NCBI GenBank assembly: GCA_017557345.1
Contig: JAFYZR010000058.1
Coordinates: 1 to 32,212 of the forward strand
Source: Paludibacteraceae bacterium
Lineage (GTDB): Bacteria > Bacteroidota > Bacteroidia > Bacteroidales > Paludibacteraceae
Reading direction: 5' to 3'
DNA: 32,212 bases
Shown here one piece after another: positions 2,132-29,798 of the stretch; positions within the stretch are counted from its first letter, which is position 1, and each line of letters starts with the position of its first letter. The notes beneath the pieces were generated by a model. The model searched no databases and was not told where the DNA came from. It was given only the letters and a program-made list of their open reading frames with translations. A program made the translations under genes and the position numbers.

Positions 2132-3016
2132 ATGTATAAAGCAACCGACAAAATATGCGACCTGATGTCGCACGAAGAGGACGCTATTCAAATTATCAGC
2201 CGCTTCGGTTTGGAGATGGGAGTAGGGGAGCAAACCATTGAGCAGGCTTGCCTCGCGCATAATGTGCATACGCCCACGTTCCTTTCTATTGTCAATTATA
2301 AGGTTTTCCATCAGCGGGCTTTACCCGAAGAGATTGACGTTCCTACGTTGCAGACGTATCTGAAGAATGCCCATACTTATTTCCTCGATTTCCGCCTTCC
2401 TAGGCTGCGCCGGGCACTTATTGAAGCGATTATTCCGGCAGATCCGGCTACTAAAATCCCAAACCTTATTCTCCGTTGCTATGATGAATTTGTTGATGAG
2501 ATTCGTACCCATATCGAGCATGAGGATGAAGGTCTGTTTGATGAGCATGAGCATGATGACCAGCGTATAACCGATAAACTGACGGAGATTAAAAACCTTA
2601 TTATCAAGTATTATCCCCCATCCCAAAATTCGAATATCGAAAATCGAAAATCGAACATCACCTATCTCCTAATAGGTGTCATGTCCGACCTATGGCATAC
2701 CGAGCAGGATTTTTCCGACCATTGCGCGATAGAAGATGATATCCTCAGACCGGCTATGACGAAGATGCAAGCTTTGCACCATCGCCGCCATCAGATGCCC
2801 GAAACGGAAGAACTGTCCGATCGCGAGAAAGATGTTCTTATTCAGGTCGTACGCGGACTGAGTAATAAAGAAATTGCCGATGTGCTCTGTATCTCCACCC
2901 ACACCGTTATATCGCATCGTAAAAATATAGCCCGCAAACTCAATATCCATTCGTCTGCGGGCCTCACTATCTATGCTATTGTCAATAAACTTATTGACCT
3001 CAATACCTTAGAATAA
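2132..3016 (+). CDS. LuxR-family transcription factor with hemerythrin-like N-terminal domain
   Basis: A 294-residue protein. Residues about 5-55 resemble the ScdA/RIC N-terminal region (SRFGLEMGVGEQTIEQAC). Residues about 75-210 hold a hemerythrin-like set of potential iron ligands: H81, H127 with E131, H189, H197 and E201. Residues 228-290 form a GerE/LuxR helix-turn-helix (LSDREKDVLIQVVRGLSNKEIADVL, then STHTVISHRKNI). Family knowledge: hemerythrin-like and RIC domains bind a di-iron centre and respond to oxygen or nitric oxide. Inference: a redox- or NO-responsive regulator in an anaerobe. The start at 2132 is chosen because the promoter -7 box is at 2071-2078; an upstream TTG at 2036 would lie before it. 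Residues about 162-177 (PPSQNSNIENRKSNIT) come from a repeat tract between two helices. It diverges from the TonB receptor and converges with cysK, 41 bp away. Confidence 0.88.
   Translation: MYKATDKICDLMSHEEDAIQIISRFGLEMGVGEQTIEQACLAHNVHTPTFLSIVNYKVFHQRALPEEIDVPTLQTYLKNAHTYFLDFRLPRLRRALIEAIIPADPATKIPNLILRCYDEFVDEIRTHIEHEDEGLFDEHEHDDQRITDKLTEIKNLIIKYYPPSQNSNIENRKSNITYLLIGVMSDLWHTEQDFSDHCAIEDDILRPAMTKMQALHHRRHQMPETEELSDREKDVLIQVVRGLSNKEIADVLCISTHTVISHRKNIARKLNIHSSAGLTIYAIVNKLIDLNTLE
2625..2660 (+). repeat. Intragenic AAATCGAAAATCG-type repeat in the LuxR-type gene
   Basis: ATCGAAA-like units in tandem encode SQNSNIENRKSNI between hemerythrin-domain helices. Composition and unit resemble the tract just upstream of the same gene (TTCGAAAATC), and the reading frame is preserved. 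Confidence 0.6.
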
Positions 3017-3070
3017 TCCCTAACTCGCTAATTCGCTAATTCTCTAATCGCTAATCGCTAATCGCTAATT
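3017..3070. repeat. CTAATTCG/CTAATCG tandem tract between LuxR-type gene and cysK
   Basis: Six to seven 7-8 bp units (CTAACTCG, CTAATTCG, CTAATTCT, CTAATCG three times) fill the convergent intergenic space and extend into the end of cysK. On the minus strand they read GATTAGC. They provide the last cysK codons (IISD) and its TAG stop. No hairpin terminator is seen between these convergent genes. Confidence 0.85.
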
Positions 3071-11230: not shown

Positions 11231-15359
<4,129 letters not shown>

Positions 15360-15387
15360 TTGAAAGTTTAAAGTTAAAAGTTTAAAG
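15360..15387 (+). repeat. AGTTTAAAG tract between the DUF6913-like gene and dapA
   Basis: TTGAAAGTTTAAAG and TTAAAAGTTTAAAG in tandem, a 14-base imperfect repeat of 7-base halves, exactly fill the space from one base after the TAG to the ATG of dapA. The final TTTAAAG takes the place of a ribosome binding site. Confidence 0.8.
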
Positions 15388-16969: not shown

Positions 16970-17000
16970 TTTAAACTCTAAACCCTAAACTCTAAACTAT
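16970..17000 (-). repeat. AGTTTAGAGTTTAGGG tract at the end of infC
   Basis: On the minus strand AGTTTAG, AGTTTAGGGTTTAG, AGTTTAAAG follow the infC TAG stop; the stop codon is itself part of the first unit (TAGTTTAG). Confidence 0.75.
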
Positions 17001-17664: not shown

Positions 17665-17876
17665 ATTTAGGACGAAAAAAATCAATAAATTGATATTTTT
17701 TTGTCATTTTCCGTTCGAGAGATGCTTTAAGATGTCCGATAAACCCCCGACATAATACCGATAAAACCTCGATATAATACCGATAAGATACCGATGAAAT
17801 ACCGAGAGGTTATAGACCAAACAAAATCGAGAAAAAATTTGATATATGCAATTTTTTGAAAAAAAAATGCAAAATA
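17665..17876. other. AT-rich divergent spacer without a gene
   Basis: Between the infC promoter and the promoter of the lipoprotein gene, within a 423-bp gene-free stretch (17555-17977). It holds the 11-bp repeat array (17730-17806) and A/T-rich runs. No open frame with gene-like features and no tRNA-like fold was seen. Confidence 0.7.
17730..17806 (-). repeat. 11-bp tandem array A (7 units)
   Basis: Seven consecutive 11-base units with no spacers, ending exactly after 77 bp. Plus-strand units: AGATGTCCGAT, AAACCCCCGAC, ATAATACCGAT, AAAACCTCGAT, ATAATACCGAT, AAGATACCGAT, GAAATACCGAG. Minus-strand consensus ATCGGTATTAT. Confidence 0.9.
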
Positions 17877-17977: not shown

Positions 17978-18838
17978 ATGAAACGAGAAATTTTAATGCT
18001 GACCGCATTGGTCGCGATGGTATTCTTAGGCTGCAAAGAGCGTGCATATATCGACGCTCCCGGTGAGAATTCACATAACCTGGATTCAATCCCGCTGATT
18101 ATGCCAGATACGGACGGAATCGAAATTACCGTTGACGAGGCAATAGCTCTTTGCAAGGAAATGGATGCGGACGTCAAGTCGGCCGAGATATACAAGATTT
18201 CCGGCGTGATAACCAAGAATACCACCAACCCGCTCAACGTGCCGAGCAGATATCAGAATATCAACTTCAACCTCTCGGACAACGGCGGCGCGACCAGCCT
18301 AGCTTGTTATTATATGAATAACTTGCGCAATCGCGAGTTCCGTAATAATAGCGATGTTCCCCGTGTCGGTTCGCGTGTTACCGTTCGTGGCGTGCTGACC
18401 AATTACAAAGGAACAACACCGGAGATTACCAGCGGATTCATCGTACGTATCGATTCGATGGTGGCTCCTCCTCCGTTCCCGGGATGTCCTGATCCGGATG
18501 AAGGTGAAGTAAGCGTAAGCTATGCGGTAAATATCGCAACGCAGTTGGCAGACAAGACAGAGTCTCGTAAGACATACAAGATAAAAGGTGTGGTAACGGA
18601 GATTATGAGTATCGATACCGGAAGTTACGGCAATGCCGAGTGGATTATTTCGGATGGTACATCATTCTTCTATATTTATCGTGGTAAAGGCTTGAACGGC
18701 AACAAGTTTACCAATGCAAATCAGTTGCAGGTAAATGATACGATAACTGTTCAAACCAAGCTCTATAACTACGGCGGCATTGCAGAGACCAAGGCTAACG
18801 GAGCGATGATTATTAAAACCACCAACAAGAACTGGTAA
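17978..18838 (+). CDS. Lipoprotein with duplicated OB-fold-like domain
   Basis: A 286-residue protein. The N-terminus MKREILMLTALVAMVFLGC is a lipoprotein signal with C19 as the lipidated residue. Two similar halves follow. Residues about 50-160 contain YKISGVITKNTTNP, NFNLSDNGGA, VGSRVTVRGVLTNYKG. Residues about 165-286 contain YKIKGVVTEIMSIDTG, EWIISDGTSFFYIY, VNDTITVQTKLYNYGG. The shared pattern (YKI-GV-T, SD, V-D-V-V, L-NY-G) resembles OB folds seen in Bacteroidota surface lipoproteins. The start at 17978 is set by the promoter: an in-frame ATG at 17906 overlaps the -7 box. Function unknown. It lies 41 bp before the PpiD gene and is probably cotranscribed. Confidence 0.8.
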   Translation: MKREILMLTALVAMVFLGCKERAYIDAPGENSHNLDSIPLIMPDTDGIEITVDEAIALCKEMDADVKSAEIYKISGVITKNTTNPLNVPSRYQNINFNLSDNGGATSLACYYMNNLRNREFRNNSDVPRVGSRVTVRGVLTNYKGTTPEITSGFIVRIDSMVAPPPFPGCPDPDEGEVSVSYAVNIATQLADKTESRKTYKIKGVVTEIMSIDTGSYGNAEWIISDGTSFFYIYRGKGLNGNKFTNANQLQVNDTITVQTKLYNYGGIAETKANGAMIIKTTNKNW

Positions 18839-22928: not shown

Positions 22929-22957
22929 AAGTTTACTATTTTTAAGATTTTGCCCTT

Positions 22958-23011
22958 ATCAGGTGTGCTCGGTATTTCATCGGTGTCTCATCGGTATTAA
23001 GTCGAGGTTAT
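22958..23011 (+). repeat. 11-bp tandem array B (4 units plus one degenerate)
   Basis: CTCGGTATTTC, ATCGGTGTCTC, ATCGGTATTAA, GTCGAGGTTAT in exact 11-base steps from 22968 to 23011, preceded by a 10-base degenerate unit ATCAGGTGTG. Plus-strand orientation, 60 bp before the endonuclease gene. Confidence 0.85.
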
Positions 23012-23071
23012 TACCTATGCAAAACCCGTGCAAAAAATATACGATTTTTAAGATTTTAATACTTTGATACC

Positions 23072-27533: not shown

Positions 27534-29726
27534 ATGAAGATGAAACGCTATTTTCGATATATACTGATTGCAAGTGTTGTTTTTAGTCTGAATTGCGCTC
27601 CTGTTGTGGTTAATGCAATGCCAAGCCCTGTGCCTGCTTCGCAAACCGATAAGCAGAAAGCTGCAGAAAAGAAGAAGAAAGAGCAAGAAAAAGCAAAAGC
27701 GGCTAAGGAGAAAGAGAAAGCAAAAGCCGCCAAAGCCAAAGAAAAAGAGAAGGCTGCTAAAGAGAAAGAAAAAGCCAAAGCGGCCAAGGAGAAAGAAAAA
27801 CAGGCAGCGGAAAGACAGAAAGCGAACGAAAAAGCCCAAGCAGAGAAGGAAAAAGCCGCAGAAGCGCGTGCCAAAGAAGCAGAGGAGCGCCAGGAAGCTG
27901 CTGCAAGGAGAGAGGCAGAAGCAAAGGAGAAAGAAGAAAAGGCTATTCGGGATTACGAGAGATATCAAGCAAACCAAGCGAATCCAAAAACGGAAGTCAT
28001 TTCGCTCTTTAATCTCGGCTTGCGTGCCGGTTATTCGGCGATGATGGATAAGATTCAGCCTGCTGCTGATGGATCATTGTGGGGTGCCGGAACACTTAAT
28101 CAGAAAAATGCTCTCCAGCAGCTTACAGGCGGCGGTGGAGCAGGTCTTGATGTGACATATAACATGGAATACGGACATCTTCTCTTTGTTACCGGACTGG
28201 ATTTCCGCTTCCTTAATTCGACATCGAACTACGGATTCCAAGCTATCCGTCAGGATAAGACTTATGGCGCAGAGTACGCGTATCTCTTCGATAAACTGAC
28301 GGAGACGCGTAATATGATGCAACTCGGCTTGCCTATCATGTTAGGTGCGCAATTTGATAAATTCTATTTCCTCTTAGGAGCAAAAGTAGGAGTTACTCTT
28401 TGGAATAATTACAAGCAAAAAGGTCTTTATGACATCGTTGTAACGGATCCCGCTTTCCTTGAGCCTTACGGCATGGGAATACACGAAATTAGCGGAGAAA
28501 CGGAGCAACCGATTAAGTTCCGCCAACCGGAATTGAGTCTTGCAGCGGAGTTCGGAATAGACCTTGATGAATGGCTGCAGGCACAACCGGATCCGAAAAA
28601 GAAAACGAAAGTAAGACCGGGCGAACGGTTGCCTTTTGGACGCGAACATATCCATTACCGCGTAGGTCTATTTGCCGAATATGGTGTGCTCAACACCAAT
28701 GCTACACCGGCTGCTTATCCTACGGTATTTAGCCCAGATGCTGTTGAGGTTCAAAAAACCAATACGCTCCTTGCTATGAATGGAGATACCAAACTGAATA
28801 ATCTCTTTGTGGGCGCGAAGTTTACTGTTCAGTTCGAAGTGCCTGGCCGGCAGACTCGTCCTGTGCCACCACCTCCTGCATACGCTATCTATAGCGTTGT
28901 AGATGTCAATACGAACGAACCGCTTCAAGTTGCTTTCGTAGAGACAAGAGGCACAGAATCTGGCAAGATTGCTATGCGTGAGAAGCAAATCGGACCGAAG
29001 GGCTTCAAGCAAAGACATGCTGTCGGATCATTCACGGCAGAGGCAAAGGCAGATGGATATTATCCTAATTCGGAGGTGTTTACTATCGAAAGTGTCGGTT
29101 CTACCCAATATGTCACGATTGCTCTGCGCCCGTGTCCGCTCTTCCGCGTTCGCGTGTATAATGCAGAGACAGGGCAACCGGTTCCGGCTAACGTGCAGAT
29201 TCTTAAGAATGATACCGTACCGGCTTATACGCTTGCTACAGATTCAGTTAACGGCTCTGCGCGGCAGATGTTAGAAGAAGGACAGACGTATCGGCTGCTC
29301 ATTGCCCAAATGGGATATGACTCCGTGGCGATGGCTATCGCAAACTTAGGCGATTCGATGAATATTGCTCTCTCGCCGATTAAGAAGGGTGAAGTATTCA
29401 TTGTCCATAACCTCCATTTCGCAACCAACAAGACACGTATACTGCCTCGCTCTGAAAGCGCGCTGAACGATCTCTTTATGTACCTGGATCGTAACCCGAA
29501 TGTGCGTATCAAGATTGTCGGCCATACGGATAATGTAGGTAAGGATGAAGCGAACCAGAAGCTGTCTGACGGTCGTGCTAATGCCGTAATGCAAGATCTC
29601 ATTGAGCGTGGTATAGCAGCTGATCGTATTGAAGCAGAGGGACGCGGAGAGACGCAACCTATAGATACGAACGATACCGAAGAAGGCCGTCAGAACAACA
29701 GACGTGTCGAGATAGAGATCTTGTAA
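27534..29726 (+). CDS. OmpA-family outer-membrane protein with Lys/Ala/Glu-rich region
   Basis: A 730-residue protein. Signal peptide residues 1-28. Residues about 38-145 are almost only K, A, E, Q and R (repeating KAAKEKEKA), predicted to be a long charged helix or coiled coil. Residues about 155-440 form a PorT-like outer-membrane barrel (LFNLGLRAGYSAMM, VTGLDFRFLNSTSNYG, FYFLLGAKVGVTLW). Two beta-sandwich, carboxypeptidase-regulatory-like repeats follow (about 455-610; VVDVNTNEPLQVAFVE and VYNAETGQPVPANVQIL). The C-terminal OmpA domain (about 620-730) has GHTDNVG, N..LSDGRA, and GRQNNRRVE, the peptidoglycan-binding residues. Role: tether between outer membrane and cell wall, probably working with the flanking surface proteins (inference). 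Confidence 0.9.
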   Translation: MKMKRYFRYILIASVVFSLNCAPVVVNAMPSPVPASQTDKQKAAEKKKKEQEKAKAAKEKEKAKAAKAKEKEKAAKEKEKAKAAKEKEKQAAERQKANEKAQAEKEKAAEARAKEAEERQEAAARREAEAKEKEEKAIRDYERYQANQANPKTEVISLFNLGLRAGYSAMMDKIQPAADGSLWGAGTLNQKNALQQLTGGGGAGLDVTYNMEYGHLLFVTGLDFRFLNSTSNYGFQAIRQDKTYGAEYAYLFDKLTETRNMMQLGLPIMLGAQFDKFYFLLGAKVGVTLWNNYKQKGLYDIVVTDPAFLEPYGMGIHEISGETEQPIKFRQPELSLAAEFGIDLDEWLQAQPDPKKKTKVRPGERLPFGREHIHYRVGLFAEYGVLNTNATPAAYPTVFSPDAVEVQKTNTLLAMNGDTKLNNLFVGAKFTVQFEVPGRQTRPVPPPPAYAIYSVVDVNTNEPLQVAFVETRGTESGKIAMREKQIGPKGFKQRHAVGSFTAEAKADGYYPNSEVFTIESVGSTQYVTIALRPCPLFRVRVYNAETGQPVPANVQILKNDTVPAYTLATDSVNGSARQMLEEGQTYRLLIAQMGYDSVAMAIANLGDSMNIALSPIKKGEVFIVHNLHFATNKTRILPRSESALNDLFMYLDRNPNVRIKIVGHTDNVGKDEANQKLSDGRANAVMQDLIERGIAADRIEAEGRGETQPIDTNDTEEGRQNNRRVEIEIL
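27640..27960 (+). repeat. Internal tandem-like repeat coding the Lys/Ala/Glu region
   Basis: Degenerate repeats of AAAGCCGCCAAAGAGAAAGA-like units encode KAAKEKEKA several times. The strong purine bias also creates long meaningless open frames on the opposite strand. Confidence 0.7.
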
Positions 29727-29733
29727 TACCCTT

Positions 29734-29777
29734 ATCGGTATCACATCGGTATTATATCGGTATTATATCGTGATTTG
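29734..29777 (+). repeat. 11-bp tandem array C (4 units)
   Basis: ATCGGTATCAC, ATCGGTATTAT, ATCGGTATTAT, ATCGTGATTTG in exact 11-base steps. It starts 8 bp after the OmpA-family stop and ends 21 bp before the next gene, so it fills the spacer. Confidence 0.9.
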
Positions 29778-29798
29778 GAAAACATAAAAAATGAATAT

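Follow-up and report, generated by a model that had tools for sequence, protein, structure and literature searches.

The question raised by this locus is what kind of DNA keeps an exact 11-bp step in a gene gap while the repeated unit itself varies. In the window, the whole 32,212-nucleotide stretch that was analysed, array 1 (17729..17805, minus strand) consists of seven contiguous 11-mers, TCGGTATTTCA TCGGTATCTTA TCGGTATTATA TCGAGGTTTTA TCGGTATTATG TCGGGGGTTTA TCGGACATCTT. Arrays 2 (22969..23012) and 3 (29735..29778) are on the plus strand and have four 11-bp units apiece, of the TCG type in array 2; their last units stray from the core (TCGAGGT and TCGTGAT, respectively). A preliminary description of this DNA had reported all three arrays, and they stand with the register shifted by one base and with a poor match in the final two units of array 1. 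Matches to TCGGTAT-N4-TCGGTAT with three mismatches or fewer numbered 17 in the window against 2.54 expected, a count reached in none of 100 shuffles. The three arrays are genuine and far above chance.

Two features around array 2 were absent from the preliminary description. An 18-bp direct repeat flanks it, with a left copy (TACTATTTTTAAGATTTT, 22934..22951, plus strand) and a right copy (TACGATTTTTAAGATTTT, 23040..23057, plus strand) placed 106 bp apart, and two 11-mers of another type (ACCTATGCAAA ACCCGTGCAAA, 23013..23034, plus strand) follow the array in the same 11-bp register. No end repeats were seen at arrays 1 and 3. Array 3 begins 8 nt from the stop codon of the gene at 27534-29726, which itself contains an imperfect 27-bp repeat (27678-27836). 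The next plus-strand genes after the arrays (ATG at 17978, 23072 and about 29799) have signal-like starts, as judged by eye, and array 1 is also upstream of a divergent gene named infC in the preliminary description; the names infC, M16 peptidase, phosphopantetheinyl transferase and rpmI were assigned by eye or taken from that description. The window also holds many 7-bp tandem arrays, TAATCGC-like and others, at 2092-2129, 2626-2659, 3014-3069, 13973-14006, 15358-15387 and 16972-16998.

The pattern recurs across the whole genome, the assembly of which has an estimated contamination of 6.84%. TCGGTAT-N4-TCGGTAT was found at 57 sites as an exact match and at 146 with up to two mismatches, against 0 and 20, respectively, for the reversed control. 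When two TCGGTAT cores were allowed any gap from 0 to 30, the gap was 4 or 15 (steps of 11 or 22 bp) in 71 of 74 matches, against 2 in the control. A scan of genome contigs for arrays returned at least 107 stretches, and among the best 40 of 113 matches, 14 had at least four core-like units in step. Successive cores were 11 bp apart in 175 of 179 cases, 22 bp in three and 6 bp in one, and never 10 or 12 bp; this count used four core spellings and cores no more than 30 bp apart in 81 pieces, namely the window and 80 stretches of its genome picked for array or end-repeat matches. The fixed step with varying units that had been noted in the window is supported by these counts.

The arrays make up the central portion of short DNA elements, a family dispersed mostly between genes. 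These elements are non-coding and about 40-125 bp long. A complete one opens and closes with a direct end repeat; between the two come two to five TCG units, for the most part TCG-N3-T, stepped at exactly 11 bp, and then one or two ACCTATGCAAN-like units that continue the register. Altogether 73 elements were assigned: 41 to class A (ATGTTCWATTTTTCC, TCG units, ACCTATGCAAN units, ATGTTCWATTTTTCC), 6 to class B, which has TACKATTTTTAAGATTTT at either end and includes array 2, and 26 to class C, in which no end repeats were seen and to which arrays 1 and 3 belong. Direct end repeats are present in 47 of the 73 (41 of the ATGTTCWATTTTTCC type and 6 of the TACKATTTTTAAGATTTT type). The class A search, which covered end-repeat pairs 51-139 bp apart and required no particular interior, found all 41 members; the class B pattern did not pick up variant copies, for instance at L192 and L198. 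A different dispersed repeat of about 100 bp, starting near GGGGTCCCCGA and ending in CCTTAGCTTAAGCG, abuts several class A elements (L138, L140, L144 and L148) and gave no Rfam match.

In an alignment of 39 of the 41 class A elements, anchored on the central unit, the TCG at positions 1-3 and the T at position 7 of the left three units are among the least variable positions (pairwise difference 0-0.10), against values of 0.3-0.5 at several of the remaining positions in the outer units. Isolated positions outside the core do not vary either, the central unit hardly varies at all, and two subfamilies account for part of the core conservation. A short core is kept, as the preliminary description had proposed, but TCG-N3-T describes it better than TCGG. 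The 19 class A elements with a spacing of 72-73 bp differ by 120 substitutions and 10 indels. Many copies in the family are related by descent, which means that counts of elements do not represent independent events.

The distance between the end repeats falls in the same 11-bp register. Class A spacings are 72 (8 elements), 73 (11), 74 (9), 83 (1), 84 (2), 85 (4), 95 (3) and 96 bp (3), and no class A pair lay outside 72-74, 83-85 and 95-96 bp across the 51-139 bp searched. Class B pairs matched by the pattern are spaced 106 (5) or 107 bp (2); genome G042 accounts for one of them and the window's genome for the other six. The clusters at about 73, 84, 95 and 106 bp give a fitted slope of 11.12 bp per step. 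Vector strength for the 48 elements was 0.92 at 11.0-11.1 bp, 0.83 at 10.5 bp and 0.90 at 11.5 bp, which makes the best-fitting period a broad one with 11.5 bp nearly as good. When each of the 13 interior types, some of them related, contributed a single value, it was again 0.92 at 11 bp, and none of 20,000 random sets equalled it. The step had been proposed to be near one turn of the helix, and the end-repeat spacing, at about 11.1 bp per step, fits this. For LacR loops in vivo, three data sets yielded fits of 11.08 (wild type), 10.95 (no HU) and 11.60 bp per turn (PMC1762422). From the match in spacing we infer helical phasing; gain or loss of 11-bp units alone could also yield clustered spacings.

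The exact TCGGTAT pair was present in 3 of 40 relatives, as was the control pattern. Of 392 further genomes sampled from the order, three had a single triple core apiece, against two control matches. Class A-type end-repeat pairs were found in 5 of 120 congeners, one or two in each, compared with 35 in the window's genome with the same pattern; their spacings are 62, 71, 72, 73, 84 and 84 bp, within the 62-92 bp that the pattern can see. Four of these five congeners have TCG-type cores every 11 bp between the ends with the remaining letters differing, and the fifth, G474, has a GCATAG array, no TCG array, and a spacing of 71 bp that fits the 11-bp series poorly. G042 has elements of the class B type, their units resembling ACGGTATCTCG TCGGTATCCTG. 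The register of the end repeats, together with TCG cores kept across species, points to a reader acting at the DNA level. In genome G085 (L209), several ATGTTCRATTTTGYGA repeats are spaced 63-68 bp apart with differing interiors. Among viral contigs, neither of two array patterns and no class B pair was found; ten stretches had end-repeat pairs, most of which resemble other repeats by eye. One of these stretches may be related: at about position 12423 of L429 (minus strand), a ATGTTCKATTTTTAAGATT pair 64 bp apart encloses a hairpin-like stretch and, by eye, resembles a mix of class A and class B ends.

The main alternative to such a reader is that the arrays are minisatellites shaped by mutation. 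Tandem copying in this genus would favour units of 7, 8 and 11 nt and gene conversion would spread whichever unit is locally common; no protein would read the arrays, and the step would be the quantum of a copying error. Array periods do peak at 7, 8 and 11 in congeners (50, 23 and 28 arrays), with 4 at 9, 3 at 10, 3 at 12 and none at 13, whereas local shuffles gave at most 1; this spectrum covers 644,065 bp in 33 stretches from 11 congeners, seven of the 40 congener stretches (picked for array matches, short or masked) having been omitted and some of those kept holding the M16-type array. Units also differ by species: pairs like CCCGCGAAATA matched 32 times in G021 and in none of 40 other genomes (one control match elsewhere), and another 11-bp family, CCGACNGTCNA, is present in 18 of 41 genomes, the window's own included. 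The same sites also carry 11-bp arrays of different kinds. The linker of the M16-type gene, surveyed in 30 of the 41 genomes, carries 11-bp arrays in 10, including the window's own, with mostly different units; the best 33-nt window has 20-32 matches in those ten genomes, and other lags have at most 19. Several further genomes have short repeats of other lengths there, as judged by eye. Of 30 genomes, six have 11-bp arrays of several unrelated units in the gap after infC, and another count of six, which includes the window's own genome, show 7-bp periodicity there.

That unrelated 11-bp units turn up repeatedly at the same sites, beside 7-bp arrays, keeps the mutational explanation alive, and we regard this explanation as a serious possibility, if an unlikely one. 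Against it, the end repeats hold their register across several unrelated interiors, and elements located by their ends retain TCG-type cores at 11-bp steps from species to species. The lack of any 10- or 12-bp step among 179 also argues against mutation as the sole source of the step, given the 10 indels overall in 19 class A copies. A clean insert in the M16-type gene was ruled out, since linkers without the window's unit are similar in length. The peptidase-like linker before SYKRHTHQ (L223-L252) shows differing short tandem repeats in many congeners with the reading frame kept.

A second alternative is that a host regulator or nucleoid protein uses the arrays as a cooperative binding site to control nearby genes. 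Response regulators of the OmpR/PhoB type offer a model, as they bind direct repeats that recur every 11 bp on one face of the DNA, and the short cores of the family, seven bases with a four-base spacer, are arranged at the same step. The conserved core and the mostly intergenic location would also suit such a site: genome-wide intergenic arrays had been anticipated in the preliminary description, and 70 of the 73 elements do lie outside called genes, even though 89.4% of the 489,374 bases are coding according to a simple gene caller. Boxes of the OmpR/PhoB type, however, typically consist of a few half-sites that precede a promoter. The family, in contrast, is dispersed, its end repeats are common, and neither its position upstream of genes nor its orientation is consistent. 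Three elements overlap genes. One, of class A, sits at the end of a gene; the other two are class C arrays inside genes that resemble those of an M16 peptidase (L155) and a phosphopantetheinyl transferase (L163), and these two do not suit a control site.

Placement of the elements relative to genes speaks against the promoter or operator role that had been envisaged. For the 66 elements with two neighbours, 42 gaps are tandem, 18 divergent and 6 convergent, a split that roughly tracks the gap lengths (24,417, 15,545 and 3,021 bp, respectively). Orientation in tandem gaps is mixed, with 18 elements pointing with the genes and 24 against them. Stop codons are nearer than start codons: the medians are 26.5 nt for distances to 3' ends (n = 54; 36 within 60 nt) and 123 nt for those to 5' ends (n = 78; 17 within 60 nt). 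The expected enrichment before genes for exported proteins did not reach significance, as 19 of 79 genes facing an element were signal-like by a crude signal-peptide rule compared with 47 of 295 others (odds ratio 1.67, p = 0.10).

Nor does array 1 behave as an old conserved site. It was not found at the 19 congener infC loci where both neighbours were recovered, although the second neighbour is only 26-53% identical and the gap at L456 is doubtful; likewise, the exact pair of the TCGGTAT unit is missing in 37 of 40 relatives. A further congener, G434, has an 11-bp array of a different unit upstream of infC. At L160 the gap is 93 nt long with its array, and the array-free gap in G427 is 20 nt; array-free congener gaps are also shorter than their counterparts at L372 (54 vs 200 nt) and L357 (122 vs 503 nt), but they need not represent pre-insertion states. 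A non-autonomous dispersed element fits better than a host operator because the family multiplied in a single lineage, its orientation is mixed and congener gaps are free of arrays; we consider the regulator site improbable.

An element acting as RNA is much harder to sustain. Adjacent UAUCGGUA cores would pair through G-U and form hairpins in transcripts, and the minus strand of array 1 did fold better than all of 200 dinucleotide shuffles (z -2.7). The other five folds, however, had z values of only -0.3 to -1.1, the mean better-strand percentile over 26 unit families was 0.56, which is no more than expected, orientation relative to genes is mixed, and Rfam gave 0 matches at the gathering threshold in seven sources (the window and six loci). 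Such a role is very improbable. Intrinsically curved, helix-phased DNA, which the step close to one helical turn had brought to mind, is harder still to credit, since predicted curvature averaged percentile 0.47 of permuted units over 26 families and GC clustering 0.53. A CRISPR array was rejected, as each of the 41 loci has one repeat pair and 28 of the 41 interiors belong to two related types instead of being unrelated spacers.

With respect to known elements, the family is short, multi-copy, dispersed and non-coding, as MITEs are. The 18-nt ends of the 41 elements have a mean inverted match of 8.9 compared with 8.0 when shuffled, and a direct match of 15.4. Candidate target-site duplications, with borders allowed to move by 3 nt either way, amounted to 15 of 41 for 4-mers against 16 in a mixed-flank control, 4 against 8 for 5-mers and 0 against 3 for 6-mers. 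Lacking inverted repeats and target duplications, the family falls outside the definition of a MITE; with virtually no terminal inverted repeats and with target-site duplications no commoner than in the control, it bears no known transposition signature. One of the closest parallels is BrickBuilt, a minisatellite-MITE with 19 copies that is described for Porphyromonas gingivalis and P. gulae (PMC4596501). Like our family, BrickBuilt is found in Bacteroidales and consists of short imperfect tandem units within a dispersed intergenic element with conserved flanks; its unit is 23 nt and it has terminal inverted repeats resembling those of the IS5 family. The 11-bp units (175 of 179 steps) and the direct end repeats spaced in 11-bp steps set our family apart from BrickBuilt. 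TAACTGA heptamer arrays, known from Beggiatoaceae, Cyanobacteria and five Bacteroidetes, likewise form many short intergenic direct-repeat sets that are patchy between lineages, but their period is 7 bp, one heptamer is shared across phyla, and most of those in the main genome face forward and lie immediately before start codons (PMC4679880). The literature searched, with most subscription papers outside its scope, gave no description of the present element.

The explanation that we favour, with confidence about evenly balanced against doubt, is a lineage-specific, non-autonomous, mobile-like element that is read on one helical face by a putative protein. Within this lineage the family has expanded, for the most part between genes and frequently near stop codons, probably through copying by recombination or transposition machinery acting in trans; arrays 1 and 3 are copies without ends. 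Proteins may bind one core per DNA turn plus one end repeat on each side. As DNA in cells is underwound, at about 11 bp per turn, units and ends would need to keep the 11-bp register in order to share one face. A more specific form of this proposal, in which a protein array reads one core per in vivo turn together with two end repeats on the same face, and in which step, TCG core and end-repeat phase are kept between species while the remainder of the unit turns over, is a tentative idea that we think is rather unlikely.

Helical phasing has mostly been measured with engineered constructs. Here, dozens of natural elements in one genome keep their ends in an 11-bp register, and this sequence record fits the in vivo helical repeat. 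The genus-wide 11-bp arrays, with their fixed step and changing units, could be used to probe what sets the period of bacterial minisatellites, errors in copying or a protein that reads them. If the protein-array proposal is true, the sharing of one unit by the elements within a species is as expected from co-evolution of reader and site, and the family would be a bacterial counterpart of satellite DNA and the proteins that bind it.
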